From Liolophura sinensis (taxonomy: Eukaryota > Mollusca > Polyplacophora > Chitonida > Chitonidae): 64,000 nucleotides of DNA. Positions 11,220 through 60,690 of the stretch are shown piece after piece. Both the position numbers and the translations under genes were made by a program. The stretch's first letter is position 1; each line of letters begins with the position of its first letter. Under the pieces are notes generated by a model that searched no databases, was not told where the DNA came from, and worked only from the letters and a program-made list of their open reading frames with translations. Where the stretch lies: contig NC_088299.1 of NCBI RefSeq assembly GCF_032854445.1, forward strand, positions 14,873,608 to 14,937,607, written 5' to 3'.

Positions 11220-11441
11220 TTACTGTGCTGTTTTTTCTAACACTGTGGGAAACTGGATGACATGGATTTGGCTGCCGTAGTCACAAATGACACAGGTGTT
11301 GCTAACAGCTGAGGTATTGCCGACAACAGGGGAGGTGCCAATGACCTTAAGGAAGTTGACAGAGTAAGGTCGCCCCGGGGAGCCGATGTTTACCTTCTTC
11401 ACCATCTCACCTGTAGTGACATCCCATAGACAGACACAACC
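11220..11441 (-). CDS. SCAP: SCAP coding exon 24 (C-terminus, stop)
   Basis: Residues 1261-1333. [20 protein letters not shown] ... [20 protein letters not shown] then KTAQ and TAA. Matches GCVSFWDLNYGDLL ... [20 protein letters not shown] at the SCAP C-terminus. Acceptor TTGACAG. Confidence 0.97.
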   Translation of the reverse strand, partial: GCVCLWDVTTGEMVKKVNIGSPGRPYSVNFLKVIGTSPVVGNTSAVSNTCVICDYGSQIHVIQFPTVLEKTAQ

Positions 11442-14400
11442 CTGTCAAGAACACAGTTAACAGTAGATATGTGTAAAGAGTTTATAGGGGTAGGAGCCAC
11501 AATGGCCTGACCTCAGTGATAAACCAACAACTGCCATCAGGAATTTTCCAGGGTCTTCATAAAAATACAATTTATTTATTTGATTGGTGTTTTATGTAGT
11601 ACTCAAGAATATTTCACTTGTACAAAGGTTGCCAACATTATGGTGAGAGGAAACTGGACAGTGTTTTGGGGTAACCCACTACTATCCGCAGGTTGCTGGA
11701 AGACCTTCCTATGCTGAAGGATCTTCCTATGTATAACCCGAAAAGAAGCCCAACAGCCTTCTTCTTTAGGGGTACAATGAAAGACAAGGTTGTTTCAGCT
11801 CAGCTATCAGCGGCAAAGTGGAGTGTGATTAGATACTTATTATTACAAAAAGAGCTATTGGTGACTGTGCTTCATAGACCAAGCTCACTATTGTAGTCAT
11901 CCTGATTCATATCTAATGCCAACTTATAAAAAGAGCTATTGGTGACTGTGCTTCATAGACCAAGCTCACTATTGTAGTCATCCTGATTCATATCTGATGC
12001 CAACTTATAAAAAGAGCTATTGGTGACTGTACTTCATAGACCAAGCTCACTATTGTAGTCATCCTGATTCATATCTAATGCCAACTTATAAAAAGAGCTA
12101 TTGGTGACTGTGCTTCATAGACCAAGCTCACTATTGCAGTCATCCTGATTCATATCTAATGCCAACTTATAAAAAGAGCTATTGGTGACTGTGCTTCATA
12201 GACCAAGCTCACTATTGCAGTCATCCTGATTCATATCTAATGCCAACTTATAAAAAGAGCTATTGGTGACTGTGCTTCATAGACCAAGCTCACTATTGCA
12301 GTCATCCTGATTCATATCTAATGCCAACTTATAAAAAGAGCTATTGGTGACTGTGCTTCATAGACCAAGCTCACTATTGCAGTCATCCTGATTCATATCT
12401 GATGCCAACTTATAAAAAGAGCTATTGGTGACTGTGCTTCATAGACCAAGCTCACTATTGCAGTCATCCTGATTCATATCTAATGCCAACTTATAAAAAG
12501 AGCTATTGGTGACTGTGCTTCATAGACCAAGCTCACTATTGTAGTCATCCTGATTCATATCTAATGCCAACTTATAAAAAGAGCTATTGGTGACTGTGCT
12601 TCATAGACCAAGCTCACTATTGTAGTCATCCCGATTCATCTCTAATGCCAACTTATAAAAAGAGCTATTGGTGACTGTGCTTCATAGACCAAGCTCACTA
12701 TTGTAGTCATCCTGATTCATATCTAATGCCAACTTATAAAAAGAGCTATTGGTGACTGTGCTTCATAGACCAAGCTCACTATTGTAGTCATCCCGATTCA
12801 TCTCTAATGCCAACTTATAAAAAGAGCTATTGGTGACTGTGCTTCATAGACCAAGCTCACTATTGTAGTCATCCTGATTCATATCTAATGCCAACTTATA
12901 AAAAGAGCTATTGGTGACTGTGCTTCATAGACCAAGCTCACTATTGTAGTCATCCCGATTCATATCTAATGCCAACTTATAAAAAGAGCTATTGGTAACT
13001 ATGCTCCATAGACCAAGCTCACTATTGCAGTCATCCTGATTCATATCTAATGGCAACTTATAAAAATTCCCGAACTTAAATTACAGATGAATGGGTATCG
13101 CAATAATCAGATAGTAAATATACCCTTAAAATGACAAATAAATAGCTTAATTACTGAACATTTACTATCGTTGTCTTATGTCTATGTGTCATGATAACGC
13201 TCTAGTATTACAGGTGTAATTCATCCAGCTTACCTGACCTCCTGTCACTAGTTTGTTAGGGAACAGCATTGCTAAGCTTGTGAATCCATAGAGATCCTGA
13301 AAACATTAGAATAATAAAACATGCCATTTTTTAAATTCAGGTGAATCTATATGTGTTCACAGAGAAGAGGACTGGTATAAATGACTTGACATATTATCAC
13401 CATGTATCACCTTTAATCAGTGTACTAAAACAATTCATAGATCCGCAAAGGTTGCCCCAAATACACCATGAGGGAACTGTTCATACTTTCTCTGAAAACA
13501 TTTTATTTAGGCCTTGTGTATGGCATACTCAAGGATTTTTACCTTATGAAATGGCCGTCAGATTTAAGGGGGAAAAAGAGAAAAACTTCCAGACATAAAG
13601 CTGCAGCTGAAACAGCAAGAGCTGGATTTCAACCTGCAAAGGTCAAAGGTCTGATAGTCACTGCAAGCCAGTGCTTCAACCATTTGATCCAAAGAGGAAC
13701 CTGTAATATTTATATATTTATTTCATTGTGTAATCCCATAATGAAGAATTTTTCACTTTATGGGTGGAAAAGATAGATGTGTCCGCAATAAACCACTGAC
13801 CTAAGTTACCCCTAGTAATAAAGCCTTGTCACTTGTACTCACATTATGAATGGTGTGGATGAGCTGGCCATGATTCCTCTCCCAGATACACAGGATGTCG
13901 TCCTGGTCAGAGCTGATGACAAACTGGTCAGTAGCGGTCAGCAGGGTGACCACACTGCCCAATCCCCTCATCTTGTGGACACACGCCCCTGCCACCAGGT
14001 CCCATAAGCGTACTGTCCCGTCCGCGGAGCCGCTAGCTGCGGCATAGGGATGACTCTATGAACAGCAAACATGTACAGTAAAAGAGCACACATATACACT
14101 AGCTACATAACTACTCTGGTGAAAAATTATAGAAGGAATACATGTCCATTTAATTCATTCATTTATTTATGTCATTGCTGTTTTCACTTACACAATGTCA
14201 TTTTTACGCATTGAGGAAACCGATGTCACTAAACCACTGATCTTTGGCAAATTACTGATGAACTTTCCCATATGTGACATACAAATATGGACATGATATT
14301 CGTGAACTTTTGGTTGTGTAAACAACTGAAAGACAAGCATCTCTCAAAACCACTCTGCCACTACCCACTTACGATCTTGCTCATGGAGACTTGATATCAT

Positions 14401-17400
14401 ACAGCTTCGGAAGGGCTTCCTTAATTGTCTTTCTGGATTCTACTGCTGGCACATGGCTGTCATCTGACATCATCCATCCTGCTATGATGCTATGATGAAA
14501 TAATAATGTACCCCGGCAGGTGAGATGTCTTACCTTATCTAGACGCAGAGTTGTTATACTACCCATATGACCATGGAGGGTATACAGACAGGCACAGTCT
14601 TATACCTGGTACACCTGTGAAAATGTACCCCGGCAGGTGAGATGTCTTACCTTATCTAGATGCAGAGCTGTTACACTACCCATATGACCATGGAGGGTAT
14701 ACAGACAGGCACAGTCTTACACATGGTACACCTGTGAAAATGTACCCCGGCAGGTGAGATGTCTTACCTTATCTAGATGCAGAGCTGTTACACTACCCAT
14801 ATGACCATGGAGGGTATACAGACAAGCACAGTCTTCTACACGGAACACCTGTCCAAAAGAAGATTACATACACATTAAATAATCAAGGCAATAAACATTA
14901 CTGGATTTCTTCAATCCTGTCTGATATCGTACTTTTTCTGAAAACAGACGCAGGGAATCTCAACAAGCTTCCACGTCCCAGGCTGTTCAAAGCTAAACAT
15001 ATTAATGGCTGAGCACCCATATGTACATCACTGGAAAGTGTATGAGCAAATTTCCATTCATTTCTTAATCAAATTGGTTCAAATGACAGAGACTATGTTT
15101 ACCTTGAGTGTGTGATCTGAGCTAGCAGACACCACACGACCTCCCACACTTTGGAGGGAGTTGATGGGCTGCTGGTGAGCAGGTACTCTCTCTATTAGGT
15201 TATAATGGATGATTTCCTCCCAGTGTTTTGAGGAGGGGAAGGCATCAGCTTGTCTCACGTGACCTGAAATCAAGAATTGATTCCCAAAATACAATATAGA
15301 TTTCTAGATATACTATTCTTGAAATATGCTGGTTTTCGAGTTTTAACTCTTCTTTTTCTTTTCTCACTTAATGTTCTCACTATCCTATCAAAAACCCCAA
15401 CTGCCTTGTATTTTCACCTTGTTCTCCCCACGATATGGCTGATATTGCCGATGTGGCGTTAAGCCATAATCATTCATTCATTCGTTCATTCTAAATACAA
15501 GAGAGAAAAAAAAATTGTCAGTTGATGCCAAAGTCAATATTTTATTTGCATGTACAACTGTTTTTTGACAATGCATCATGACAATCAACATGTATGGTCA
15601 ACACAATGTACATTGGTAAAAGCTTTCTCAAGTGATTGTCCATCCTAGGCCAAGTTTAACTATCAAAGAAAAAAAAAGCTCATTAAGGATGGTCATACTG
15701 TTTTATGCACATATATGAAGACCAACACCAGCCGTCCTCTTAGTGACATCAAAACCAGAGTCAAAGTTTATAGGCTATCAGTCAAAAAGTTCAGGTTATT
15801 GTCTTGAAGAAGTTTAATGACCGAGAAAAACAGATGGTGGCCTTGGTGACCGTTTTGTTTCAGGTACCTGGGTGAAAACCCATTGCAGTCATTATCTCAG
15901 AGATACAATCTCACTTCCCATGACTGTTGTCATGTAGGCATGACTGCTCTAATTAGGGTCTACACAAAATTCAAACAACAGATTCAGAGAATGCAGGTAG
16001 CTCACCTGACTGAGCATTTCTTAAAACTGCATAATGTTCAAGTCATGTAATACGTTTGAATACTGACCTCTAAACCAAAATAAAGTAGAACGGTTAACAT
16101 CGTCATACAGATATTATTCTCTAATTAGACAGTGCTAAATCTTGCCTTTAAATCAACAAGAAAGGCCAAAATTATTATGCTGTCACAACTGTGATTATGG
16201 ATTACAGAGTAGTGAATTCCTATTTTATGTTGGTAGAGCGTCCGCTTCGGGACTGGTAGATCCAGGATCAATCCGTGATCGAGTCACACCTAAGACTTTA
16301 AGAGAGGAAGTTGTAACTTCCTTGCTTGGCGTTCAGGATGAAGGGGATAGTGCAACGACTGGTTGGCCCCTATCAGTATAATGGCTCGGGCGGGGCGGCT
16401 TACTTGCCTTCGGTAAGTCATCTCAGTGAAGCAGCAGTAAATAAAAGAGCGGTGGAAATTCGTCCTGCAACAAGGTGGCACATTACACGTACATGCACCC
16501 TAATGATTCCATCGTCGTCACATGACTGAAAAATTGTTGAATACGACGTTAAACCCCAAGCACTCACTCACTCACTCCTATTTTATGGAGTAAATCATTG
16601 CAGTGGTAAAAAGATACTGTGGGGAGTTTGTGCACAAATTTACCGCAGAGGTCTTGGGTATGCAAATTGCAAACGACATTTGGCAATCCATGGACAATGA
16701 GAGACAACAGCAACCGTGTGAATGGCTGGAAGGAAGTGTTGAGCTATGAGGTAAAAAACGTCCTGGTCTTTGATAGGCAATTCACTACCAATGATTGGCT
16801 ATCTGCATACATGTACTATGGATGGCCACTTCAACCCTATGATTGGCCAAAAACTTTAACCAAATTGGACACAGTCTCTGCCATGGACAGCAACTGACCC
16901 CTGCTCTCACTGTATCTCTAAAAAGCTAAAATGGCAAAACCCGTCATCACGTTGGCTAACACCTCTCTCTTATTCTGTGAACCTCTGTGAAACTTATTCT
17001 GTAATAAAATCATAGAGTAAGATAAAAATGACATACCCCTAAAACAGTGCATATGTGTTAATCTATACGTTCGCTTTACATCACTGCCATCACCAGCAAA
17101 TTCTGAACAACGCCAAGGTCTCTGGGATCAAGGCGATGAGGGAGAAAGTGACATCAGAGAACAACAATAACCAGTTTAAAGTTTGTTTTCTATTTCTACT
17201 TAATACACATGCCTTCTCTTTGTCTGAAGTAAGCATGACATAATTCTAACGGTCACCTGGAACAATTCTATTGATGAACGCTAATCACCAGTGGTAATGC
17301 TAAGCCTAAACAATCTCATCTGCACAGCACAGGCTTCAAAGGTCAAGCTCGTCTAGTGGTGGCAGTGATGTACAGTGAGCTTAGAGAACGGCACATGGGC

Positions 17401-20400
17401 TGTAAACAATAAGGCAAAATGTAATAACTCCTAGCTTTATTTCAGGTTTTTATGCACTCAGATAATCTCTATTACCTCTGTTGTGTAATGCTGCTACCTG
17501 CTGAGTGTGAGATTTGGTTGGATTCTGAAAGGTTTCCAGCTCCAAGAAATCAATTTCTCCGTTCAACCTGGCTGCTGTCACCCTGAAAACAAAGCAATGG
17601 CCATGAAATATCCCTATAAACAGTGATTTGAGAACTTTCTTTGATACAAAACTTGTACTACATTAGGAGTAACATATTATTTGTAATTTAGGAAATCTGC
17701 ATGCAAGTCTATCTTTCAAAACAAAAAAAATATATAAAAGGATGCTCGACATGATAATGCTGAAATATTGCCGACATGGTATTAAACCAAACTCATTCAC
17801 TTTATTAAAGGATGCCACTGTTTAGCGAGAAATTAAAGCACCAATATAGCTACATGTACAAGTATAGCTCTCCTCTTGCTTTCAAGCTTTTTGATTTATT
17901 TATTTATTCATTTGACTGGTGTTTTAAGCCACTTTCAATGACTTTCATGTTCTGTCCAGACTCCTAGAGCAGAATATGAGTAATATGACTCTGTCTTGCA
18001 GGTGAACTAAAACTCAAAAGTAACATTCACTATGTAACAAGTGCTGTTTTTCACTTGGTTCAAATAGATTTGTCTTATTGAGCGCCTACTCCCAACCCTC
18101 TCACCCACCTGTGCCCCCCCCCCCCTCCCCGAGCATTCTCACCTGTTGCCATTAACACAGATACAAGTGACACCATCCTTACAGTCATCATACAGGTATC
18201 TCAGCACACCTGTCAGGCTATCCCAAAACTGTCCACAGAGAAAAACATTATTAGTCACACAATCAACATAATGATGATTTATTTATTTCACTGGTGTTTA
18301 ATGCCGAATCTTTCATGTGTATTATAGCAGTCATAGTTTAAGGGTGGTGGAAACTGGAGTGCCCAGAGGAGACCACCATCTTTAGTCATGTGTCTGACAA
18401 ACTCCCTGAGCCAGGTAGAAGCCAATCAGTTGTGGCAAGAATATGTTTATCAGTTTACAACTCTTATCTGATTTTTTTTTTATTTGCTCGACAGGGGGCT
18501 TACATCATCCTCAAAAATATTTTCACCCTTACTGCAATAGTGACTTTCATGTCAGATGTTGCATAAATATTGATATTCTGAGGATTTTATCTACTAATAC
18601 AGCAAGGCTACAATATAGGCAAATTGCCCTCAAGTGGCAATGTCATGGGTCACTTGAACATCACCCTATTGTCATAATGACCCAACTTTAAAGTTACGTA
18701 CAGGAACGTTACCCAATTGTTTTTATTTACTTATTTCACCAGACTCAAACAATATTTCAATCAGGGGAGATTTGTTAATTTTTTTAATTATTTATTTCAC
18801 TGGTTTCAAGAATATGTCACTTATACGACAGCTGCCGACATTATGGCAAGAGGAAACTGAGCAGCGCAAGGAGGTAAAGCAATGTCCATCTGCAGGTTGA
18901 TGGAAGACCTTCCCACGTACAACCTCAGATGAAGTCAGCATGTAACCAGAGCAGAAGTGTAGCGCTAACCTCAATCCTGCCATTGCCACACCCACAAATG
19001 ATAATGTTGTCCTGACAGGCCATGCACCAGACTGCAGGAGTCAGCCAGTCATCCCCACCACGCTCATTTCCCGGGGCTGGGTCGTAGGTTCCCATAGCAC
19101 TCCCTGAAAAGCAAAAGCCAACATCTGATCAAGTCCCACAAAAACAACATAGATTCCTTGGAAGTATTAACAGTGCTGTATGAATGACATACAATCTCCA
19201 TTATAGTTTTCATAAACACTCTCGACTTAATGGCAGCATCTTCATTTTTCAGATAGTTTGCTAAAACAAAAAATATCAAAAAAAAAAAAGCAAGTCTTTG
19301 ACAACAAAATTATACCTAACTAATGAGTCAGAGTATTAAAGCACATACATATAAGTCGTCCAAATCGAAAGTCCCATTTCTCTTGGCATAATACAAAGTT
19401 TGTGGACGAAACAACTCAACAGATTCAGGATCTCTGAATTTAACTCAAAGGAATAACATCAACATGTACAGGTACGTCTCTTGGGGCCTCCGTGGCTCAG
19501 TTTGTTAGCGCACTAGCACAGCATAACAACCCAGGAGTCTCTCACCAATGCGGTCGCTGTGAGTTCAAGTCCAGCTCATGCTGGCTTCCTCTCCAGTCGT
19601 AAGTGGGAAGGTCTGGCAGCAACCTGTGGATGGTCGTGGGTTTCCCCCGGGCTCTGCCCGGTTTCCTCCCACCATAATGCTGGCCGCCGTCGTATAAGTG
19701 AAATATTCTTGAGTACAGCGTAAAACACCAGTCAATGGTACAGGTGATCAGAAACATAATGTCAACAAAGGTTGACTAACATTTTTCACAAGTCACATGA
19801 CAAAGTAAGACTGTTTTTACCTTTAATGACAGAAGAGTTTGAACTCGAAACTCTCCTATTACAAACCACATCATTCTGAACCTCAACACACCTGTGCTCC
19901 AGCTGCGGTTACGTCCCTCGTCGTCAGGTCTATCCGCACCCATGCTCTCTGACATGCCCGTCAAGCGTCTGCGCGAAGTCACGTCACATCTCTCCATGTC
20001 CTTGTCCTGTTGGCTACTCACGAACAAGTTTGAGCCCGTGAAGGACAGAGAGTATTCAGGTGACCACGGCGTGTCAGCCAAGACACCGCCTCTGAAGGAA
20101 CTGGCTCCTGGGGGACCTGCGTGTAGCTTCCTAGTGAAATCGTCTTCATGAAACTCAGCGTACAAGTCTGCATCACTGTCCTCCACATTGCGGCCCACAC
20201 ATGGTTTACGCTTCATGGGTGGAGTCACACTGCCATGGCAACAGAAACATATTACTGTCTGACACATACAACTGTATAAACAGCCTAAACACACCTAAAG
20301 GGCTAATTTTTTTTTAACACCAAAGCAGGGTTTGAATTTCTCAGATCAACCGTTAAATATCTTAATAAGCATGATAAGCCATTCAAATTGTTACAAACGC

Positions 20401-23400
20401 AATTTGTCATGGATCTGTTGTCACAGCTGTCATGCTTGGGACAAAATTAGAATACACCACACCACAATTTCCTGCTTTGGTCACAATAATACACAATATT
20501 ACAGTATTTCAGCTCAACGAAAGCTACCTCTACAATACTTTACTGTTCATGGTTAACTTTTCGATTTCAAAACCGTTGGCTTTGTGGACATACCCTTGTC
20601 TCTGTATGTGTGTGAGACATTCACCAGAATTGGAGTCCCACACCCTCAGTTGTCCTCCCAGACAACAGCTGACTATCAAGGGGCCATCTGTAGCTAAACA
20701 CTCAATGTCCTGCAAATGTGAAGGTGACTGAATGAAGCTATTATTTCACTGAGAGGCTCCGACTGTGCGCCTTCCATACATCCGACAATTTGATTGGGTT
20801 TTGATGGAATGATGTTTTACCACAGTACTGAAGTATATTTCACTTTCATGATGGTGGCGAGTTTCACTGGTCGGCGGAAACTAGGCAGCCTGGAGAAAAC
20901 CATCAGCTTTTGGCAAGTAACTGACAAACTTTCTGACATGTTATACACAGATTTTCATTGTTAAAATGAGCTCAATATACATGCCAGTTTGGTTGAAGGA
21001 TATTGATTTTAACAGAATTCATGACAATAATCCCATCTAATATTAGCACTGTGTAGCACTTATTGTCACAGCTGGAAAATTCCTATTCCTTTTGTGGGAA
21101 TGAACCTTGAATATCTCAGGACATACAGGTCCCTCAAGATTTATAGACATGCATTTCAACTGCGTGACCTTGACCTGCTTAACTTTAAGTGTTTTGTAAC
21201 ACAACTCTTCTCCACTGGAACAAGCATTTTCGACTGAAGCAGGAAATTTCGGCTTTACTACACACAAAGGGCAAATGTAGCTAAAAAAAGAGAGATTTGG
21301 TACACAGCTCAATTCTGTAAAGGGCTATTTGAATCAAGGGAGATAAATCTGTGGCAGATGTAGTTACAACTATCTAACCATTACAAAGTTTTAAACTGAC
21401 ATAAGGTATTTGGTTGTCCAAAATGATGATCTATATGTAAGTGATTTCTGTTCGGTTTCACTGCTTTTCTATTTCACCTTGACAATGGAGAGCAAGCAAA
21501 TGTCTGATTACATAGTGCACATCATGCTTCTTACAGTCATCAGAGTACATAAGATTTTGTGGGACTACCTACCAAAGCATGGCCCTTGAGGATCAAGGGG
21601 AGAGAATCCTTGATCTGCCGGAAGTACTTTCCCTTCACCCTTTTGGCTTTCTTAGACCAGGAGCTGCGCCACTTGTCGTAGTTCCTTGAGCAGCAGCACT
21701 TATAGAGAATAACGAGGAAGTAGACAAGGAGGAGAAGGCTGAGGATAGCAAGGACGACCGTGATTGTGAACTCCTTCAGACTCTGAGGGTAGAACAACTT
21801 CAGGCTGGGTGCAGGGCCTCCTGGCACAATAGGACGGTTCCCTGCGGATTGATTGACAGTTGACTGGCCAGGTTGTGTCTTCTCCTGGTCCCTCCTCTGA
21901 GTGCCTGTGGTGACATCACTATTGGCTTGCTCTTCTGACATGGGTGGTCGCACTTTGATGACCTCCTGGGGGCTGACTTTGATGGACAGGTGCAGGGATG
22001 GCAAAATGCTGATATGTCTGCACATAACAAAACACAATATATTTACGACATGCTATTCTGGGTTCCAAATCAACATGGGTGAGTCTTTGATATTAATGAT
22101 TGCTGAATCCTTTAATTCAAGCCTACTTATGGATACTACTTGGCTTATTAATTAATTGTTGTTTAATGTCAGACATAAGAATATTTCCCTTATTTGTCGA
22201 TGGTGAGTTTATCAAGGGAGCACAGGGAGTGCTCGGAGTAAACCACCAGCCTTTGACAAGTAACTAACAAATTTTTTTCTCTTACAGATAGTCACGGCAA
22301 GAGCGAGTTCAATACATATACCACTTGTGATTTGTGACTACCAAGTGACTTGTCACCAAGGCCACCAGAACAGAGGATGAGGAACCTGTAAAAGATTAGT
22401 GCAACTTCCTAAAGGTAAACATCTCAAGCCTGTAGCCTTAAACTGCTCCATAGAATTAATAACCCACGGACTCTACAGAAAGTTAGCTGGAATGTACAGC
22501 AAAAGTTTCTCTACGAGGAAAGCATCCTGTCTGGTTCAGATTGTTCTTCCAGAACTAAAAGTTTCCCCACAAGCAGTATACATTCAGTACCTTCCTGAGA
22601 GACTTATGTTGTAATATCCCAGCAGTGTCCGCCAGTGTTTGAAGGACAGATGGCGCCACAGTTCAAGGTCACTGTGTTCTGTACTCTGTTCCTCTTCTTT
22701 TGGCACACTGTGTAGGTGTTCTGCTTCATGAGGCCACTGTGCCACTGTTGGTCCCGCCCCTCCAGGCCCCACCCCTACTGGCCCTGCCCCAACTGGCCCG
22801 CCTCCTCCAGGTCCTGCCCCTTTAAGCACCGACTCCAGGCTACTGGCTGGCCCGGGTATAGGCTGCACTGTCAAACTCTCAGAGGCAGCAGCCAGTTTTT
22901 CCACCAATCCCGTCTTGTACATGATCAAGGCAATCCAAATAACTGTGCACACCTGTAAGGCAAACAGGTAACAAAATATTTGCAATGGCTGTGACATAGC
23001 AAAAGTCAATGTGAACTGACCAAGCTCCTCTTGATTTGCAGACAGTTTCTTCTTAACAAGATCATATACAAAACTTACCATAATGGCTCTTTGGAAAATC
23101 CTAGTCCGTGCCCAGAAATACAGAAATCTTAGTCGTCGAGGCAGGATGGTCGGGGAGGGAAGAAAGCCTCATCTGCCTCGGGGGAGGGCGGGGTTCCTAC
23201 TAAGCTGATAGTGTCTAGCCCTGGGGCTGACTTAGAACGCTGTAGGCGGATTGGTGGATCTGGAGAGGGAGGGGTCAATCTCGTCATCACTGGGCAGCGG
23301 ATGAGTGGCTCAATGGCAGGAAAAGATAACTCCTCTGAAGACATCTCCTGTTGGATGCTTTGTTTGTGAAGATCGGACAGCTACAACAAATGGCCATATA

Positions 23401-26400
23401 TTACTCCTAAAAAAAATATTCTGCTACAAGCATTCATAGCTTTTGCAAACTTAGGAATCCTGCCACGCATTCGTAGCTGTTGCAAACTTAGGAATCCTGC
23501 CACGCATTCGTAGCTGTTGCAAACTATGAAATCCTGACTAGCATTCATAGCTTTTGGCAAACTATGAAATCCTGACTAGCATTCATAGCTTTTGCAAAGT
23601 ATGGAATCCTGACTAGCAATCATAGCTTTTGCAAACTTAGGAATCCTGCCACGCATTAGTAGCTGTTGCAAACTATGAAATCCTGACTAGCATTCATAGC
23701 TTTTGGCAAACTATGAAATCCTGACTAGCATTCATAGCTTTTGCAAAGTATGGAATCCTGACTAGCATGCATAGCTTTTGCAAACTATGAAATCCTGACT
23801 AGCATTCATAGCTTTTGGCAAACTATGAAATCCTGATTAGCATTCATAGCTTTTGCAAAGTATGGAATCCTGACTCGCATTCATAGCTTTGGCAAACAAT
23901 AGAATCCTGTAAACTCCATGTACTGATTTGTCTTAGACCATTATAGATCAGAAAAACAATCAAATTATTACATAATGGGCAAAAATCACTCTAAAAATAA
24001 AAAAAAATGTCCAAAAACTCACATTTAATTTAAATAGCTTCTATAACCCAGCCTAAAGGTGTAAAGAGATGAGAATTTATTTGTTTGCACAATTATGATG
24101 ATTCTATCCCTATGGTGAGATACTACACGTCATACTGGACTGACTACAGAGACCTACCTCCATTCTGCGGATATCCACAGATAACACTGTAGCGAAGAAG
24201 ACAATCTGCAGGAAGAAGTCTGACAGGAGTCCAACCACAGCAAACAAACAGAATTCCTGACAAAAGAGAGAGGCAAAAGTCCAACTATGACAAACAAACA
24301 GAATCCATGGAAAGTCCATGAGGACAAACAAAACAGGATTAATGGAAAAGTCCAGAAATGACAACCAACAGAATTCCTGGAAAAAGAGGCAAAAGTTCAA
24401 CTGTGACAAACAAAACAAAATTCACAGAAAAGTCTACAATGACAAGAACAAACAGAACACTTGACAAAAAAAATATTTATTTGTGTCCTATCTGGCAATG
24501 ATGAAGAATCATATAAAGAATTCTGCTTCAAATCACCACCAAAAAGTAATGAACTGGTGTTTTGCCCAAGGCCAAGATTCTGACAGAATTTTGTCTAAAT
24601 CTGTGGTGAACTGTCTATGAACTAACAGACAGATATGGTATAGACAAGCCTTGGCAAAAAACATACCTAAATAACCATAAATTTTGTCCACGACTAACTT
24701 GCTAATTTTTCCTGATTCTGAGAGTTCTATTGTTTCAGAAAGGTTGTTTTGAAGTTTGCTTGGAACATGGGATGATATTCTACAGGAAAATTTTTTAGCA
24801 CAAAAAATAATATTTTGTGACATTAATTAGCCACTAAAAAAGCACTTTTGTGGGTGAAATTTGAGGTCATTTAGGGTAACCTTCCTGGAGGCAGTAAAAT
24901 GACCATGCTAATCTGACATTCTCTATGCTCGCTCTTGTTGACAAATTGCCTTCAGGTGGCTTTCAAAAAATATAAAGTGCATGTACCTGTATACTGATTG
25001 GCTGATGAAGTATTTTGATTGACAGCAACATTGGGTTAATGTGTGCTGGAGGCTGGTCAATTCAAAAACTTTGAATACTAATATATTCATCTGACTGGAC
25101 AATAGTTAACACAGAGAATGCTGGTACACATAAGGCATTGTTAGCTCTGGATTAAATTCAAGTACGATAATGACAAAGGAAGCAAGAGGTACTTACTGAA
25201 AATTACAGCTGGATTCAGACTCAGAACTCACCAGTAGCTAAACCGAGAACTCACCTGTAGCTAAACCGAGAACCCACCTGTAGCTAAACCGAGAACTCAC
25301 CTGTAGCTAAACCAAGAACTCACCTGTAGCTAAACTGAGAACCCACCTGTAGTTAAACCAAGAACTCACCTGTAGCTAAACAGAGAACCCACCTGTAGCT
25401 AAACCGAGAACTCACCTGTAGCTACACCGAGAACTCACCTGTAGCTAAACCAAAAACCCACCTGTAGCTAGACGGAGAACTCACCTGTAGCTAAACCAAG
25501 AACGCACCTGTAGCTAAACCGAGAACCCACCTGTAGCTAAACCGAGAACTCATCTGTAGCTAAACCGAGAACCCACCTGTAGCTAAACCAAGAACCCACC
25601 TGTAGCTAAACCGAGAACTCACCTGTAGCTAAACCAAAAACCCACCTGTAGCTAGACCGAGAACTCACCTGTAGCTAGACCGAGAACGCACCTGTAGCTA
25701 AACCAAGAACCCACCTGTAGCTAAACAGAGAACCCACCTGTAGCTAAACCAAAAACCCACCAGTAGCTAGACCGAGAACTCACCTGTAGCTAAACCAATA
25801 ACGCACCTGTAGCTAAACCAAGAACCCACCTGTAGCTAAACTGAGAACTCACCTGTAGCTAAACCGAGAACGCACCTGTAGCTAAACCAAGAACCCACCT
25901 GTAGCTAAACCGAGAACCCACCTGTAGCTAAACCGAGAACTCATCTGTAGCTAAACCGAGAACTCATCTGGAGCTAAACCGAGAACTCACCTGTAGCTAA
26001 ACCGAGAACTCATCTGTAGCTAAACCGAGAACCCACCTGTAGCTAGACCGAGAACTCACCTGTAGCTAAACCGAGAACCTACCTGTAGCTAAACCAAGAA
26101 CTCACCTGTATGACAGGAACAAAGGCTAAGAAGCAGACAGTATAATGAGTAGCTCAGCCACCAGGTGATGGATCAGATATAGAAGCTGCCTGTAGCTAGA
26201 CACAGAACTCACCTGTATGACAGGAACAAAGGTGAAAAAGCCGACAAGGATAATGAGCAGCTCAGCCACCAGGCGAGGGATCAGATATACAAGTTACCTG
26301 TAGCCAGACACAGAACTCACCTGTATGGCAGGAACAAAGGTGAAAAAGCCGACAAGGATAATGAGCAGCTCAGCCACCAGGTGATGGATCAGATATAGAA

Positions 26401-29400
26401 GTTACCTGTAGCCAGACACAGAACTCACCTGTATGGCAGGAACAAAGGTGAAAAAGCCGACAAGGACAATGAGCAGCTCAGCCACCAGGTGATGGATCAG
26501 ATATACAAGTTACCTGTAGCCAGACACAGAACTCACTTGTATGACAGGAACAAAGGTGAAAAAGGCAACAAGGATAATGAGTAGCTCAGCCACCAGGTGA
26601 TGGATCAGATATAGAAGTTACCTGAAGCTAGACACAGAACTCACCTGTATGGCAGGAACAAAGGTGAAAAAGCCGACAAGGATAATGAGCAGCTCAGCCA
26701 CCAGGTTCTTGGTTATGGACCAGCCTTCCTTACTCAGGCCTGCAACATTGTAACCACCGTTAAGGAATTAGAAAAGCCAATCATACAGCATACAGGTAGC
26801 TGTTTGATGTGTCAGAGATTCATACACATAGATTTTACAAACCGATATTTGGTTCATAAAATAAACTCAACTTTGGCGTTGGAAACTGAATATTTTCCAC
26901 CAAAAAATTTTAATGACAGAAATAACTACACAATTTAGTTGCTATAAACTGAATGTTGAAAATAAACATAAGAAAACTGCATTCATAGATCCATCCATTC
27001 TAAAACAAGTTAACATTTCTCAGGTGATTCATACAGCAAGCAAGTACATGTAGCTGTTTGATTTATCTATTCATCTACTTGACTGGTGTTTTATGCCATA
27101 CTTAAGAATAAGTAGCTATTACCATTGCACACATGTTGTTTGTACATGTCGTATGTGGATAAACTTGGAACAAAGGAAGGTAGATCGACGGTCAAGTTTG
27201 ACCACCAAAGGGTAATCAGTGCATGAGGACCTCATAATATGTGAATTTTTATCAAATCAGTCAAGTAGTTTTAGGTTTGCTTTTTATGCTGTACTTAACA
27301 ATTTCTTTGTCATATGATTTATTTATTTATTTGATTGGTGCTTTACGCCGTACTCAAGAATATTTCACTTATACGACGGCGGCCAGCATTATGCTGGGTG
27401 GAAACCGGGCACAGCCCGGGGGAAACCCACGACCATCCGCAGGTTGCTAGCAGACCTTCCCACTTACGGCCGGAGAGGAAGCCAGCATGAGCTGGACTTG
27501 AACTCACAACGACCGCATCGGTGAGAGGCTCCTGGGTCATTACGCTGCGCTAGCGCGCTAACCGACTGAGCCACGGAGGCCCCTTTCTTTGTCATATGAT
27601 GATGAGGAGTCATTATGTATATGTACATATGCTGTGTCATCTTGTGGACGCGCGAGTCTATGTCGTCAAAGTGCTGCTGTCACTGGACTATCATGCCAAA
27701 GACACCAGGCATGACACCCCACCCAGTCACACTACACCAACATTACTGATGTCTTTGATATGACCTGACCCGGACAAGATGTATTCAGGTCTCGAGAAAC
27801 CCTTAAAGGCAAAGAAAACACTGAACTGAAGTGCGTATCAAATGAAATACCATTAAACTACGAAAGTAGTTCCATTTTTTTTTTTCAGCATTTTTCAAAA
27901 GGTGTAAAATTGTTTTAAAGTGTCAGAATCTACAATGCTGTGTAGTGACCAAGAGGGTATCAATGATGTCATATCCATATTTTTTCCCTGAAATAGTTCG
28001 TTTCAAGGTCCATTCAGTAAGTGCATTCATAGATCTACATGTATATGCATTTACAACGATGACACCAAGCGGTGTATGTCTGTTGAGTGGCAAAGACCTA
28101 ATTTGACGTCACTGGTCCCAATATAGTCAGATAAGGTATCTGTAAAATCCAAAGTAGAATCCAAATGCATATTTCTGGGTGGAAAAAATTAAAAAAAAAA
28201 AACAAAAAAACACCAACTATTTTTGTAGACAGTTTTTCATATGCTTTCATCTTACATACACTTCATGTTAGTGTTTTCTATGCCTTAAACAAGTCTTGTT
28301 GCAAACTTTCATTCAAATATGATAAATCATTCTGCAGATATTGAATTGAACAGAAGTGTGCCCCATGTAGGCCAGTACCAAAACAAAATGTCTTGCTCCG
28401 TTCAGTACAGGTTGGTGGGGAGGTGGGAATGCGTGGATGGGGATTTGGGAATGGGTGGGGTGGGGTGTATGTAAATACTATAAATAAATTAATATTAACA
28501 AAATAAATATGTAATTCTGTCCCTTCTCTGGGTTCCCTACCTTGGGCCACCCTGTACTTGACATCCAGGTGGACTGGGGTAGAGACCACGGACTTGGTCA
28601 GCACTAACACATTCTCCAGGCCTATAATCATCACCAGATAGGGGAAAATCTCACTGAAATTAAACGTCATCAGGTTGTGATTTTTTTTTTCCATGCAAAA
28701 TCAGAAAAGTGCTTTTCTTTCTTGATTTTTTAAAAATATTTGATTGGTGTTTTATGCCGTACTCAAGAATATTTCACTTATACGACTGTGGCCAGCACTA
28801 TGGTGGGGGAGGGAGGATTTCTGTTTTCAAACATTCTACAGACAACAGACAACATTGCAATCATTCAAAATGTGAATAACTGTAAAATCAGAGTGTCAAT
28901 TCGTACATAACTGAGTGAAAGACTTCATATCATTTCCCAAAATTATAGAAGCAGAGTTTGACTGAGTCAGCAGTACACGGGTTGAGAATAGTGTTTGTTC
29001 AGACCTGCGACAAGTCATTATGGGGGGGGGGGAGGGGCATTCTTTAAATATAAGCTTCAGAAAGATCCTATAGAATAGATCATACCTGTAACATTTCCCT
29101 GATTTAGAGGTGTTACTGAAATGAATTCACAGAGAAAGTTGCCACCTAACATCAGGCAATTGTTGTGGAGAAAGTTGTAGAGAAAGAGATTGGGCCTTCC
29201 CAGGTGAAGACTTATCATACATGTAGGTTTGAAAGAAATTCCCTACTCAATTTCTGTAACCAACTGAATAACCAACTGTCTTACCCTCCATTGAGCGTGG
29301 GTGTCAGGCCAAACAGTGTACAGATGCTGACAGACATGAGCAGCGAGGCAATCAGTGTAGCCACAGCACTGATAGCTAGACCCCACTTGGACTTCACCAT

Positions 29401-32400
29401 CTCTATCTTACCTGAAACAGGTAACACCACAGGTCAAAAGCAACAACAACAGCAACGTGTTCTCTGCATTCCCCTTTGTCACTTACAAGTGTGAAAATCG
29501 TTCAATGAAACATTTCACTTTACACATTCATTCATTAAGAGTGACAGAGTACTACTTTAGTGTATTTTACTATTATACTCAAAACATACATGTACCCACA
29601 GACAGATAACACACTCATAACTCATAACATACTCTCAGACAGATAACATGGTCATACTCACAACAGACAGCCTACATGTACCCACAGACAGATAACATAC
29701 TCACAACCTGCATGTACTCTCAGACAGATAACATGGTCATACTCACAATAGACGTGTACTCACAGACGGATAACATACTCACAACCTGTATGTACTCACA
29801 GACAGATAACATGGTCATACTCACAAGAGACGTGTACTCACAGACAGATAACATGGTTGTACCCACAGCCTGCATGTACCCACAGACAGATAACATACTC
29901 ACAACCTGCATGTACTCACAGACAGATAACATGGTCATACCCACAGCCTACATGTACTCACAGACAGATAACATACTCACAGCTAATAATGTACTCACAG
30001 ACAGATAACATACTCACAGCTATTAATGTACTCACAGACAGATAACATACTCACAGCTAATAATGTACTCACAGACAGATAACATACTCACGGCCTACAT
30101 GTACTCACAGAAAGATAACATACTCACGGCCTACATGTACTCACAGACAGATAACATACTCACAGCTAATAATGTACTCACAGACAGAGAAGTAGATGTA
30201 AAGAAGGAGGACAAAGTAGATGACCAGCAAGGGAGTGTACTCCACAAAGTAGTTAATGTCCTTGTAGTGGATGTGGACTAGGTGCTGGATGTCCGTGTTA
30301 TTGACCGTGTCAGAGGTCAATGGGAACAGCTTCTCCAGCTTCTCACGCAATGACCGGGTAAACCTGTCACAAATACAGTCGGTCATACTTAATTAGTGTG
30401 TGTCTCAAATTACAGAGATGGTAGACAGGCTGTTTTAGGGTGCTGGGTCCAGTTGTTTGAAGGTGTACTAACCAATATTGGTAGTGAGTTGTATTTTCCT
30501 TTTTAAATCTTAGCCGAACTCAACAGCCAGTGTAGTTGTCTAAAGTCAAAGTAGAACAGCAGCAGTTTTAGTTCATGTTAATATATTGTTACACAATGTT
30601 TTTTTTTTAGTCTAAGTACAAAATTGACGCCTTGACATAGGTTAAATCTGGATTCTCTAAAGATGTTCCACAATCACTATTGTGATATACATTCAAAAAA
30701 TAGTATCAATAGATTCTCAAAGTTTACCACAGGTCTACAGTCTGATATTTTCAACAACGAACACTTATATATGTATATACATTTAAAATGGCAGTCATTT
30801 TTATGGATGTATGAAACCAGGTGTTCGCGGTAAACCACTAACCCTTGGGAAGTGACTGACAAACTTTTCCAGGCATGAAGTCCATTTTGAGCATAATACA
30901 ATACAATATTCAACGCTGAAAGACAAGTATTTTCAAGAACTGATCCCAAGAAAAATTATCTTTCAAGGTCTTGAAAATCTTGAATGAGAACAACCTTGAG
31001 CAGAAGACCAGTGGGAACCCTTAATGAAACTACCTTCTTGATAAATTAAGATGTGAAGTATACAAAGCCAATGTGCTCTTGTCAATTACAATGATCCAGG
31101 GATAAGAGAAACTATTGCAATGACCAACCTGGACAATCATTTATTTATTTATTTGATTGGTGTTTTACACCCTACTCAAGAATATTGCACTTATACGACG
31201 GCGACCAGCATTATGGTGGGTGGAAACTGGGCACAGGTGACAAACCTTCCCACGTATGGCCGAAGAGGAAGCCAGCATGAGCTGGACTTGAACTCACAGC
31301 GACTGCATACAGGGGCAATCATGACAAACAAAGTGATGGAAATTAGAGTTACATAGAGTGTACTTCAGTTAACTTGCCATCACGCATCTGGTTGAAAACT
31401 TGATCTCACCTCTCACTGAAGTTCCTATACATTATTGTGAAGGCGAATGTGATGGTACGTCTTCGATTTCTCAAAAAGTATCCAGACATGCCCGTTTTCT
31501 TCCATGGGACACCAATCAGTAAGTCTAAAATGACCATTCAAGTTCACAAGGTGAGTTTACATTAATTCTCATTTCTTACGTTACAACTTCTTTTTTACAG
31601 ATACGCATATTTCAGGATACGTACACGTGCAATTTAGTAAACAAAATTTTCTCCGTACATCCAAAAAAATTAATAAATACCAACTAGTCAAAAAACTTTT
31701 TGTCAAGATCACATAGAGTTCCGATGTGGCAACTGTCGAACCCAGATGAGTGACACAGCCAGCTATCTCATTCTGTCGAATACTGTGCCCCAAGAGAACC
31801 CCTAGGTATGATCTGATACGTACCTTGCAATGTCGGAGAGGTTTCCAGAGGTTGGCCATAAGCAGTCTTAATTGTCTTCACTTCTGAGGAATCCAAAATG
31901 AACCTGACAATGGAAAAAGAGTCAATCAGGAGGTTAGCCACACAATGCATCAATCAAAAGCCTACTAGTGGTTCATATGTAGTGAGTACATCAGATAAAT
32001 GCTGGGTGACTCTTATACCAAAGTGAGCTAGAAGCATGTCAGAAGTCTTCTATGTGAGCATTAGAAGAGAGCTAAAGGAATGTCAGAAGCCTGCTACAAG
32101 TGTGCTGTTGGCGAGCTAGTGACATGTCAGAAGTCTGCCACGAGAACTTTAGAAAAGAGCTAAAGGAATATGAGAAGCCTACAAAAGTTCTGATGGTGAG
32201 CTAGTGGCATGTCAGAAGTCTGCTACAAGAGTGTTGGTGGTGTGTTAGTGGGATGTCAGAAGTCTGCTACAAGTGTGTTGGTGGTGTGTTAGTGGCATGT
32301 CAGAAGTCTGCTACAAGTGTGTTGGTAGTGTGTTAGTGGCATGTCAGGGCGGTGTACAATCTACCATATTGGATATGAATGTAAAAAAGACAATCTACAC

Positions 32401-35400
32401 AAAAGAACGGATAATCTATGGGTGTAGATCAACATCAGAAATGTCACAAAAGACATTACATGTACTACAACCATATGAAAAAATTTCGTGTTTGTTTTTT
32501 TTTTCGTATGGCACCAAGAATAGGACCAATTTTAGCCAATGCCATGTACTGTGATTCTTCAGCCTTTTCACATCTTTCCAAAGAGTTTATTAAAGCATAT
32601 TCTGAAGGCATTATTCTGTGTAGACTATTAAATTTATACTTTTTGTCAAGCCCTTAAATTGGCCAATCCAACCAAAGAAGTTTTGTCTCCAAATATTAAA
32701 AATACGCATAAATTCCACAGAAAGTTGTTCTTTCATATGCAAAAAGGTTGAAGAATTAGGGTAAACTATATAATCTATATAGGTTTAAGTGGCCATGGTA
32801 ATTATGAGATGATAACAGCTCACTTCTTGAAATCTCCATGCCAGAAATTTGCAGGGGAGACAACTAGGCAGTTATACTCTGGAAGTATCCCTCTCAGTTT
32901 TTTATGTGTCACCAGTTCTCCTACTCGTAGACAAAGGTCTGCCATGGATATATCCTTCTGCCTGTGATGGAAAACAAGCCACAATGCGTTGTCACAAAAA
33001 GGTTGCTAACCTGTTCACTTACAATTTCAGTGAAATCTATGAAAACCCATAAAGTCAGACATGATAGAAAGCCCTCAGAACAATTAAAAAACTATCAGGT
33101 TATAGATGTAAAGTTCTGGGTACAATTTTTCAGAACATAAAACACTGATGACAATATAACAATACTGGTATACATGCTAGTAAGTTTTCTGTGTCCAAGA
33201 GGTCTTTTTACTCAGGTAACTCTGTATAGGCCAATACATGCATGCGTGTAAAAGCTAGATGAAAACTATGAAAAACAAGCTAATTCAGGGAATTTATCTC
33301 CCACTCTTTTCAAAGTGAGTTTTCTTCAAAATGACAGACACTGAATTTTCTTCAAAAGTTTCACACTAGACTTGCTTGGAAACACTGAAGTAACAACTTG
33401 GCACATAACAAGCATTTAAAAGTAGACTGAGCTTAACCTGTTGGTGCTTACCCATCAGTGAACTTGAAGGTATTAATAGCCTCGAGAATTGCAAATGCCT
33501 TAGACAGAGGTCCTCGTAAAGCATCCGTCACCTGCATGTCCTCACTCTCCCACGGAGACACAGTGGCTTTGACAATGATTTGCTGGATATAGGCTACAGG
33601 ATGAGTCAAGTACTGAAACAACAAGAACAGTCTCATATATGTAGCTGTTTCTGTAACTTAAATATTGTGGCATGTAGGTACAATGTAGTGACATGGATGT
33701 TATCATGGAAAGGTTATCAGCCCAAGTGTGCTTATCCGTTCAGCATAAAGGGGAGTTAACTCCTGTAGCAGCCTCACTATTTTTCACCAATTCTAGCTTT
33801 CAAACAGTCAGCAATAACATCAAATGGCTCTCTTAATGCTGTGGTCGCACACATGGACATTTAATTATCAGGTGAACCAAATCTTTCAGCGATTTCTAAA
33901 ACATACATTTGACACTGATGCTTTGTCCACATTTGCACAGTGTACAAAAATATGTCGAGAAATTGGATCTAGATTTATTCAATTCTACTGTGACGACCCG
34001 GTTTCATATCACCAGAATATTTCACTTACATGAAACAATGAGTAAAACACCGATCAAAAAAATGCTTTGAATTGAAATGCTTTTTTTCCTGTAGCTTTTA
34101 AAGTTTAGATCTCTCCCTATCACCAGCTTGAAATACAGTTCATGCCATACAAGCTCGCTCCTTTCAAAGTGAATTTTCTTCAAAATAATAGAATGTGACA
34201 TTAACGCAAGTCTCTATCTAATAACATGCAGAATTAACCCTGAGGCATTATTTCACCTTTACATGAATTTAACACTCATGGTCTAACAGAACCTTAGATT
34301 TTGAAAAGTGTGCTATTTTAAACCCTACTCATCACACACACACTTCTTGTTTAATGCCTCTACATGCAAACCTGCCTTACCCATCGCTGTTTGACAATAT
34401 CATCTTTTCCTCTCTCAGTCTGGGCTTGGACAACCGGTACAGAATACTCAGCTATTGGGGTGTTCACTTCAACTGGAGCATTTCCAGGTAATGGCAGGTT
34501 AGTCAGAGGGTAACTACATGGAACCAAACATTCACATCATTTATTATGGTAAGTATTGGTAGATTGAATTCCAAATACTTCTGTCTACCCAGGTAATCTG
34601 CATGTTGTGCAAAACATTTTATTCAGGGCGTTTGAATAAGGTTTTCTCAATAATACAGTAATACACACAGGATTAATAGACCATCAAATCATCTTTCCAA
34701 TTTTCCTCCTAGAACATTCAATTACACATACACTTTGAATCGAGAACAAGTTTACTGAGCCAGAGAAAACAAATGAATTAAGCAGCTTCTATTCATTTAT
34801 CTATTTTCATCATTTGAATGGAGTTTTACATTGTACTCAAAAATATTCACTTTAATAAAGAAGCAGTGATTGACAAGTCGCTGCCAAATCAGATGCCAGG
34901 ATCATCTCAAAATGTTGTCAGTACTGATATTTTCTAACTGTTCTATGTTCTAAATATAGAACGGAGCCCTTTGTAACAAAAGGGGGTACTAGGCCTTTTC
35001 TTTTTTTTTTTTTGCAGAAGGGAAGAACACACAAATGTAGAACCCTGTTCAAATGAATGATCACAAACTTCCTGAACACTGATTAGAACACAGCACTAAA
35101 TAATGTCACTCAGTCTTTGGCAATTCTCAAAATAAATATTCTTTGATCTTTACAATAAAACTAACATGTAAACATCAGATAAGCATTTTTAGGAAAACAA
35201 TTTAAGTCAACAGTTTGTGCTAGCGTTTTCAGGTCCTGTACAGAAGGGGCGAGCATGTGAAAATATAACCAAAATCCTGCCCAGCTGATACTTTTGATGG
35301 AGTGAAGTGGAACCTCATGACCTAGTAAAATAAAACTTAACACTGAGAAATCTGTTTCACTTTTCCTAATTTTAATTAAACTTTGTGAGAGTCTTCCTTC

Positions 35401-58000: not shown

Positions 58001-58020
58001 TCATACACGTACTCTGGTCA
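52046..58020 (+). other. Long first intron of the zinc-finger gene, 5' part
   Basis: AT-rich and without coding exon. Contains an A-run (52960-52981), a TATATC microsatellite (about 53026-53070), a SINE tail (about 57205-57240), a diverged duplication at 57840-58020 (CCATGTACCAGGAT twice) and several less AT-rich, repeat-free patches (54360-54720, 55820-55985) that could be regulatory. Confidence 0.5.
53026..53070. repeat. Microsatellite (ATCTATAT)n
   Basis: TATATATCTA-type units repeated about four times. Confidence 0.9.
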
Positions 58021-58765
58021 ACAGTGTGTATTACATGCATCTTCCATCAAGTCCTATACTTGTATGTGATGTAGGCATGTGAACAGTATTTGTTACATGT
58101 ATGTCCCATCAAGTCCTATACTTGTATGTGATGTAGGCATGTAAACAGTATTTGTTACATGTATGTCCCATCAAGTCCTATACTTGTATGTGATGTAGGC
58201 ATGTAAACAGTATTTGTTACATGTATGTCCCATCAAGTCCTATACTTGTATGTGATGTAGGCATGTGAACAGTATTTGTTACATGTATGTCCCATCAAGT
58301 CCTATACTTGTATGTGTTGTAGGCATGTGAACAGTATTTGTTACATGTATGTCCCATCAAGTCCTATACTTGTATGTGATGTAGGCATGTAAACAGTATT
58401 TGTTACATGTATGTCCCATCAAGTCCTATACTTGTATGTGATGTAGGCATGTAAACAGTATTTGTTACATGTATGTCCCATCAAGTCCTATACTTGTATG
58501 TGATGTAGGCATGTGAACAGTATTTGTTACATGTATGTCCCATCAAGTCCTATACTTGTATGTGTTGTAGGCATGTGAACAGTATTTGTTACATGTATGT
58601 CCCATCAAGTCCTATACTTGTATGTGTTGTAGGCATGTGAACAGTATTTGTTACATGTATGTCCCATCAAGTCCTATACTTGTATGTGTTGTAGGCATGT
58701 GAACAGTATTTGTTACATGTACATGTATGTCCCATCAAGTCCTATACTTGTATGTGATGTATTTG
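58020..58765. repeat. 62-bp minisatellite, about 11 copies
   Basis: GTGAACAGTATTTGTTACAT then GTATGTCCCATCAAGTCC, exact 62-base spacing from 58079 to 58699. Variants (GTAAAC versus GTGAAC; TGTGATGT versus TGTGTTGT) recur in the same order over four units, so blocks of about 248 bases were copied. Confidence 0.95.
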
Positions 58766-59399: not shown

Positions 59400-59910
59400 C
59401 TGCAAGGTGGACAGCTAGCTAATCTTGGATTATTAAAGTTAGAAACTACATGTATAAATTATTTTTGTGTATCACCTGATGGACAGCTAATCTTGAATTC
59501 AGTTAGAAGCTACAGGTACAAAAGTTGTCATGTGTATCATCTGATGGACAGCAAGGTGTGCAGCCAGCTAATCTTGGATTAAGTTAGAAGCTACAGGTAC
59601 AAAAGTTGTCATGTGTATCATCTGATGGACAGCAAGGTGTGCAGCCAGGTAATTTTGGATTAAGTTAGAAGCTACAGGTACAAAAGTTGTCATGTGTATC
59701 ATCTGATGGACAGCAAGGTGTACAGCCAGCTAATCTTGGATTAAGTTAGAAGCTACAGGTACAGACGTTGTCACATTTATCACCTGATAGACAGCAAGGT
59801 GTGCAGCCAGCTAATTTTGGATTAAGTTAGAAGCTACAGGTACAAAAGTTGTCTTGTGTATCATCTGATGGACAGCAAGGTGTACAGCCAGGTGATCCTT
59901 GATAAATTTA
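59400..59910. repeat. 81-bp minisatellite, five clean copies plus decayed ones
   Basis: GTTAGAAGCTACAGGTACAA occurs at 59502, 59583, 59664, 59745 and 59826, exactly 81 apart. Earlier (from about 59400) and later (to about 59906) copies are diverged. Unrelated in sequence to the 81-bp array in SCAP. Confidence 0.93.
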
Positions 59911-60690
59911 AAAGCTACGGGTTTAAAGTTTTGATCAGGCTGGTATATTAGCTAACAGTTGTTCAGTTAGAAGTTATAAGTTGACTGAAGAATATTTTCT
60001 TTAAACTTTGGAATCAGCTACCACGTATAATCCGACCAAGCATGATAAAGATGTGCGTGTTGATGCAGTGGTTGTGTATTCATAATCCGTGTACACTTCA
60101 TAGTCTGGTACACATACATTTCCTTCACCAGAAATTGGCCATAGATTGAGCGTTTCATGCATGTGTTTTTTAATATACTGGTATATATACCTCGTCACAG
60201 TGTGTAAGAAACGTGATTTTAATGGCTGTGTTTGACTATATCGATTTAATTTATTGATGTGAAAAAGGATAGAAGTTTGTAATGACATTATCAGACTGAT
60301 TGTTGAAGTTCGTCAGTATGGGTGAGTAATGACACATGAAGTTGTTCAGAACAGACTTTTGTTATTCTGTAAGGCCAGTGTGAAAAATCAGCAAGTTTCT
60401 GAGGTAATGGAGACAAGATTTTCTGATTTCTTCTTTGTGTATTGTGGCAATCATAATGCTGTGTTCAGAGATGTCTTGCATTAAATGTGAGCAAAGATTA
60501 TAAATTTTGAAATGTGCAATACATTTTGACAAAACAGGATTCCTAAACATTAAATGTAGCATGGTGGAAGGATTAAAGATGCAATAGAATATTTTAAACA
60601 TCAATTTTACTTTCCTTGACATTGGGAATCAGTACAACGCATGGACTTCACCTACAGCTGTATTGTGATAAGCTTGCTGAGAGTAGCAGG
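59911..60690 (+). other. Intronic, nothing recognised
   Basis: AT-rich, no exon or repeat structure seen. Confidence 0.45.

Follow-up and report, generated by a model that had tools for sequence, protein, structure and literature searches.

Tandem arrays spanning splice junctions in a molluscan SCAP gene, and their recurrence in unrelated genes of the same genome

The window analysed here is the whole stretch of 64,000 nucleotides at C5:14873608-14937607 in a 609-Mb genome assembly of 632 contigs, and its minus strand carries a gene whose exons we modelled on the basis of open frames bounded by GT and AG, with 24 coding exons and 46 junction points as the result. The initial annotation had named this gene SCAP, and its exon numbering matches our model. 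Its identification is upheld by homology: the translated exons 1–11 match the Pfam families SCAP_N (1e-70) and sterol-sensing domain (1.4e-47), and a PDB search with the same translation returned SCAP at 2.4e-150. Exons 1–11 and the start of exon 12 lie in one frame, which breaks in exon 12 (window positions 23132-23168), the exons beyond the break being open in a frame shifted by one. A genuine variant, a mistake in the assembly or a small intron that went unrecognised could each explain this break, though a hidden intron was rejected as its cause after seven GT-AG solutions yielded no donor judged convincing. Coding exon 13 holds a 15-bp repeat of 3.4 copies (22749-22799), which encodes a stretch rich in Gly that also contains Ala, Val and Pro.

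A Tandem Repeats Finder run on the window placed arrays at all four junction regions in which the initial annotation had described amplified splice junctions. The features of the gene, in window positions and in the direction of transcription, are as follows (a slash marks the splice site).

37728-11220, minus strand: SCAP coding region, 24 coding exons (exon model, Pfam, PDB)
32023..32347, minus strand: array in intron 4, no junction (Tandem Repeats Finder and exon model)
30182..30363, minus strand: SCAP exon 7, with its donor TCT/GTGAGTAC inside an array
29587..30188, minus strand: exon 7 donor array, unit of about 36 bp, with 22 additional GT sites matching the real donor in strength
26645..26739, minus strand: SCAP exon 10, donor CATACAG/GTGAGTTC
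26080..26706, minus strand: 108-bp units, 5.8 copies, of the exon 10 3' part and donor (Tandem Repeats Finder and exon model)
25223..26110, minus strand: 23-bp array, 38.6 units, a donor-like word in each (Tandem Repeats Finder)
24275..24384, minus strand: weak repeat, 35 bp, on the upstream side of the exon 11 acceptor, with one clear exon-start copy (Tandem Repeats Finder)
24158..24256, minus strand: SCAP exon 11 (exon model)
23429..23909, minus strand: array in intron 11, no junction (Tandem Repeats Finder and exon model)
14768..14848, minus strand: SCAP exon 21, authentic copy (exon model)
14505..14852, minus strand: exon 21 array, 117-bp unit x 3.0, with acceptor and donor (Tandem Repeats Finder)
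11843..13066, minus strand: 81-bp array, 15.1 copies, in intron 23, no junction (Tandem Repeats Finder and exon model)

The donor of exon 7 is weak, pairing with U1 at -6.9 kcal/mol vs a median of -9.1 for 23 SCAP donors, and 22 GT sites downstream of it pair at least as well, against a background of 1.79 sites of that strength per kb in un-arrayed SCAP intron. The "about 22 extra" donors claimed for this exon are therefore there when counted against its own weak donor, and none of the GT sites in the array reaches the SCAP median; 20 of the 22 sit beyond an in-frame stop at +41 nt. Exon 10 has a stronger donor (-12.2), and its last 60 exonic bases together with that donor stand in six copies, the final one broken by a stop, so that the five extra partial copies followed by a 38-unit array were correctly described. 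Between exon 10 and the end of the 23-bp array the word CAGGTG.GT occurs 36 times, and 17 further sites match the real donor's strength (un-arrayed SCAP intron has 0.05 per kb), all 17 beyond a stop at +27 nt. Exon 21 has the two extra whole copies reported for it; both keep the acceptor AG and the donor, both have a TAA in frame, identically placed, and both decoys (2/2) are preceded by a stop. That the fifth extra exon 10 copy contains a stop and both extra exon 21 copies a TAA indicates that the extra copies are free of coding-frame constraint.

The acceptor side of exon 11 is a weaker case. One upstream exon-start copy scores 34, above the maximum of 29 reached in 500 shuffles, and three others, at 22–23, are borderline, so that one clear copy remains of the "about five extra" claimed, and, of the "at least four" junctions said to form repeat units, exons 7, 10 and 21 stand and the exon 11 acceptor is weak. 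The "four further arrays" said to fill other introns come to three large ones (introns 4, 11 and 23) plus small ones. Overall, 4 of the 46 SCAP junction points lie inside arrays, and the arrays themselves are plainly not chance. Intron 10 also holds a repeat of some 214 bp (~24666-24879) that is dispersed in the genome, with at least 41 other places at 74–88% identity, and two further arrays lie in the window beyond SCAP (58020-58761, 62 bp x 11.9; 59417-59922, 81 bp x 5.4). Minisatellite-like tandem duplications of exon–intron boundaries, 5' or 3', are described as "mirages" in the amphioxus Adh3 and globin genes (PMC3087553), and we use that term below.

Outside this gene, the genome was searched for three copies of one word spaced 10–40 bases, and each separate cluster among the first ~100 placements per word was taken as an array: 13 for the donor word AGGTGAGT, 14 for the donor word AGGTAAGT and 14 for the control word AGTGAGGT. 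Among the placements listed, clusters counted by eye in C1:0-30.85 Mb numbered 13, 9 and 2, respectively. Homology identified an exon at the start of seven of the 27 donor-word arrays, and by eye the first unit contains the end of that exon.

L001: ankyrin exon (3.2e-10)
L002: SNF2 exon (7.7e-6)
L003: "Helicase-like protein" in PDB (3.3e-11), which we take to be Mot1
L007: tissue fucosidase exon (1.9e-11)
L008: Fe-hydrogenase exon (3.1e-13)
L018: Branch exon (3.5e-6)
L022: GH31 exon (2.8e-13)

A further array has a weak deoC match (L024; 0.0027, far under the cut-off) and no match in PDB. By eye, an exon-like frame ends in the first array unit of three others (L021, L025, L026) and, less certainly, lies at the array in three more (L009, L013, L019); these frames showed no homology in Pfam (L009, L013, L021), in Pfam and NCBIfam (L026) or in Pfam, NCBIfam and PDB (L019, L025). 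Eight arrays have no exon at their edge by eye (L004, L006, L010, L012, L015, L016, L020, L027), a likely exon ending some 46 bases upstream of the array in L006, and for five (L005, L011, L014, L017, L023) no exon was found in the parts of the upstream extension examined. The 14 control-word arrays were checked by eye, less intensively for exons than the donor-word arrays, and one of them (L028) was also searched: a possible ABC-type exon, its match weak and under the cut-off, ends on the opposite strand about 13 bases before the array. Another control array (L031, C1:53198113-53199972), with a 36-bp unit, lies wholly within a 529-residue open frame and is perhaps a coding minisatellite.

Two of the homology-supported arrays (L002 and L003, C1:4177452-4192814) lie about 11 kb apart and adjoin exons of apparently one SNF2/Mot1-like gene, and several mirages per gene are therefore not peculiar to SCAP. 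Nor is SCAP itself special, because like anatomy adjoins exons of myosins, a fucosidase, the Mot1-like protein and others: junction arrays recur in unrelated genes. The core of the earlier claim, that junctions have been turned into tandem-repeat units with exon edge and splice signal included, is thus confirmed and extends past the gene for which it was made. Elsewhere in the same assembly (C8:37880506-37891931) the haemocyanin beta-sandwich family PF14830, presumably a molluscan family, has eight matches in tandem (3.3e-41 to 1.4e-28), each in a long open frame. These matches mark the host as a mollusc, and an amphioxus host was rejected on their account.

A sample of genes chosen regardless of arrays came from one Pfam search for myosin heads, which gave about 20 clusters, of which 12 were analysed. 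The first ten were picked for dense matches and compact size, and two were added after the first test (below) had given P 0.35. Exon edges were set with a basic scoring script and then corrected by hand, and are approximate for that reason, and exons missed by the Pfam search are uncounted. For two muscle myosin exons the top PDB match was chain 3i5f, which we take to be squid myosin, the next-best matches being presumably vertebrate myosins for the first exon and scallop-type entries for the second. The 12 genes span 141,734 bases and 113 junction points, and 20.7% of their bases lie in arrays scoring at least 100. Of the 43 arrays at that score, six include a junction, at donors in genes B, G and P (two in P) and at acceptors in genes E (32 bp x 42.9) and D, so that 6 of the 113 junction points lie inside arrays; in gene O a donor-derived array begins 60 nt past the donor and was excluded from the six.

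The initial annotation had also proposed that junctions seed arrays preferentially, and here each array was reduced to a single unit whose position within its own gene was randomised. With this one-unit seed, 3 of 7 SCAP arrays fall at junctions vs 1.08 expected (P 0.074), a borderline excess given the arrays that the gene has, and the 12 myosin genes give 6 of 43 vs 2.60 (P 0.042). The myosin figure is the fairer of the two because SCAP was picked for its arrays, though it was reached in two steps, ten genes (3/34 vs 2.08 expected, P 0.35) and then two more. Pooled, 9 of 50 arrays lie at junctions vs 3.68 expected (P 0.008), and a bias toward junctions is therefore possible. With longer seeds, the joint P rises to 0.053 (1.5 units) and 0.15 (2 units), and that of the myosins on their own to 0.14 and 0.27, respectively.

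The share of words found in tandem triplets is a second measure, a rough one because placements cluster within arrays. Tandem placements over single occurrences amount to 1007/24391 (4.13%) for the donor word AGGTGAGT and 341/18804 (1.81%) for its reversal, to 508/26582 (1.91%) and 365/29090 (1.25%) for the donor word AGGTAAGT, to 275/40787 (0.67%) and 100/19004 (0.53%) for the acceptor word TTTTCAGG, and to 468/18276 (2.56%) and 449/19661 (2.28%) for the control word AGTGAGGT. Specifically, AGGTGAGT is enriched about 1.9-fold over three matched controls, AGGTAAGT 1.5-fold over its own reversal and the acceptor word 1.3-fold, and the share of AGGTAAGT is lower than that of AGTGAGGT, two words that differ in base content. 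Junctions are struck at the chance rate or at up to about 2.5 times that rate. Of the proposal, what stands is that junctions do become array units, in unrelated genes as well; the preference itself draws weak support, and we rejected it as a settled fact, since the statistics are borderline and vary with the assumed seed length.

The splice cores of the extra units were compared with the other positions of the same arrays, leaving out one array (L021) whose consensus lacks the motif. In six arrays that were not found by motif, GT/AG cores depart from the unit consensus in 7 of 256 cases vs 213 of 3785 at other positions, and in ten motif-found arrays in 68 of 666 vs 876 of 12636; over all 16 the figures are 75/922 and 1089/16421. 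The less-changed cores of the six arrays could reflect maintenance, but the ten motif-found arrays point the opposite way, and there is no consistent conservation of the extra cores, and none when the arrays are pooled. Concerted evolution inside arrays could mask either effect.

Starting from what the genome displays directly (how the arrays are built, that they recur in unrelated genes and how decoys affect the reading frame), we favour the reading that the SCAP junction arrays are near-neutral mirages in which the exon-side site is the one in use, and we give it a probability of roughly three in four. A tandem duplication would by chance span an exon–intron boundary and give birth to a minisatellite, which slippage or unequal exchange would then extend into the intron. 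The unit nearest the exon would retain the real exon edge, and the remaining units would leave with the intron at splicing. With about one fifth of the bases of the 12 myosin genes in minisatellites, junctions will often be struck. As a decoy nearly always brings a stop, its frequent use would cost output, and the persistence of arrays in conserved genes therefore suggests that the exon-side site is used.

Junctions, and donors above all, may instead be favoured for minisatellite birth beyond chance overlap, for example through DNA or transcript features at splice sites. The pooled excess of junction arrays (9/50 vs 3.68, P 0.008) and the tandem-triplet share of AGGTGAGT, about 1.9 times that of the matched controls, speak for such a preference, yet the joint P of 0.15 with two-unit seeds, the 3/34 vs 2.08 (P 0.35) of the first ten myosins, an acceptor word enriched just 1.3-fold and a AGGTAAGT share of 1.91% under the 2.56% of the control, albeit with unlike base content, leave it in our view doubtful. 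Just as tentative is the broader picture in which junctions, donors foremost, would be preferred about two-fold or more, a sizeable share of them would bear ladders of near-identical splice sites among which the spliceosome picks the exon-side one, and these ladders would form a reservoir for new introns and splicing variation. We hold it improbable that the donor ladders are functional decoys that capture U1, divert some splicing to stop-carrying transcripts and so tune SCAP output. The 17 sites equal to the exon 10 donor (vs 0.05 per kb in un-arrayed intron), the stop that nearly every decoy would introduce if used, the slight conservation of cores in six arrays (7/256 vs 213/3785) and the effect on splicing of the human factor VII intron 7 repeat would all suit a decoy function, but the cores of the ten other arrays are not conserved (68/666 vs 876/12636), like anatomy adjoins unrelated genes, and the amphioxus mirages are reported to leave regular splicing unaffected (PMC3087553). 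The decoy or dosage role that had been suggested for a sterol regulator thus finds no support, like anatomy lying by exons of myosins, the fucosidase, the Mot1-like protein and others, and dosage control specific to SCAP is unsupported on the same ground.

Two further explanations are less probable still. An assembler may have inflated or created the arrays, and the absence of a second haplotype of the exon 10 region from the assembly (40 of 2903 candidates scored) is in keeping with this; against it, the units vary by scattered substitutions, arrays of similar anatomy occur in many genes and the contigs are long (e.g., C1 of 96 Mb), observations that say nothing on copy number but make an artefact very unlikely. 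Least credible to us is that the repeats belong to a mobile element, or an introner-like one, whose insertion targets or creates splice sites. Splice signals do lie within the units, but the units copy each gene's own local exon sequence, and the genome search with the exon 10 region, in which 40 of 2903 candidates were scored, recovered besides the region itself four short pieces and one dispersed repeat that lies outside the array.

Read as near-neutral mirages, the arrays show in a mollusc what had been described in amphioxus, and the phylum is new within the reach of our literature search (titles and abstracts of open-licence papers, with no mirages in molluscs among the matches listed). 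Arrays enclose 6 of the 113 myosin junction points sampled and 4 of the 46 SCAP ones, which suggests that mirages can be common. Ladders in which roughly 20 to 36 similar donors follow a single exon constitute a natural test of how the spliceosome chooses among equal 5' splice sites, and the same ladders are a test of whether such arrays yield new introns. The junction arrays are a striking and true feature of this genome; the hint that junctions are favoured is modest and unsettled.

Related structures are known from other systems. In human coagulation factor VII the intron 7 donor lies within a repeat whose copy number affects splicing, and a donor inside a repeat is what the mollusc donor arrays share with it, though the human case is one locus with few copies. 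This repeat, HVR4, is a variable tandem repeat with alleles H5–H7 (PMC3166910). In an abalone TSSK1-like gene, a minisatellite in intron 3 with a 27-bp unit varies in copy number between individuals (PMC6905558); it too is molluscan and intronic, and the part of that report available to us mentions no splice site in the unit. A potato RdRp gene is reported to have gained an intron by tandem duplication across an intron–exon boundary, splice signals included (PMC4974935), which shares the boundary-spanning duplication but, as described there, is a single duplication that made a new intron and not an array. In human segmental duplications, internal tandem repeats at exon–intron boundaries, with 27 intron modifications in recent paralogs, are reported to form new introns (PMC2812944); minisatellite expansion at boundaries is, on that account, common to both, whereas the mollusc cases lie in conserved genes with no new intron seen.

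The closest parallel is with the amphioxus mirages, which are described as having many units with splice signals, as unstable in length and as a proposed source of new introns, RT-PCR having suggested that regular splicing is intact (PMC3087553), and which also occur in the troponin C and PGBD5 genes (PMC3902484). Their units measure 10–72 bp in Adh3, 60 and 108 bp in PGBD5 and 150–160 bp in globin genes (PMC3087553, PMC3902484), and those of the mollusc arrays fall within the range that these accounts give. In both, the repeat spans the boundary together with its splice signal, here at SCAP exons 7, 10 and 21 and at six myosin junctions, and both boundary types are involved, donors in SCAP and in myosins B, G and P and acceptors in myosins E and D. 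Unlike those mirages, the ones described here have as host a mollusc and not a cephalochordate, lie in many genes and reach up to about 40 units per junction.
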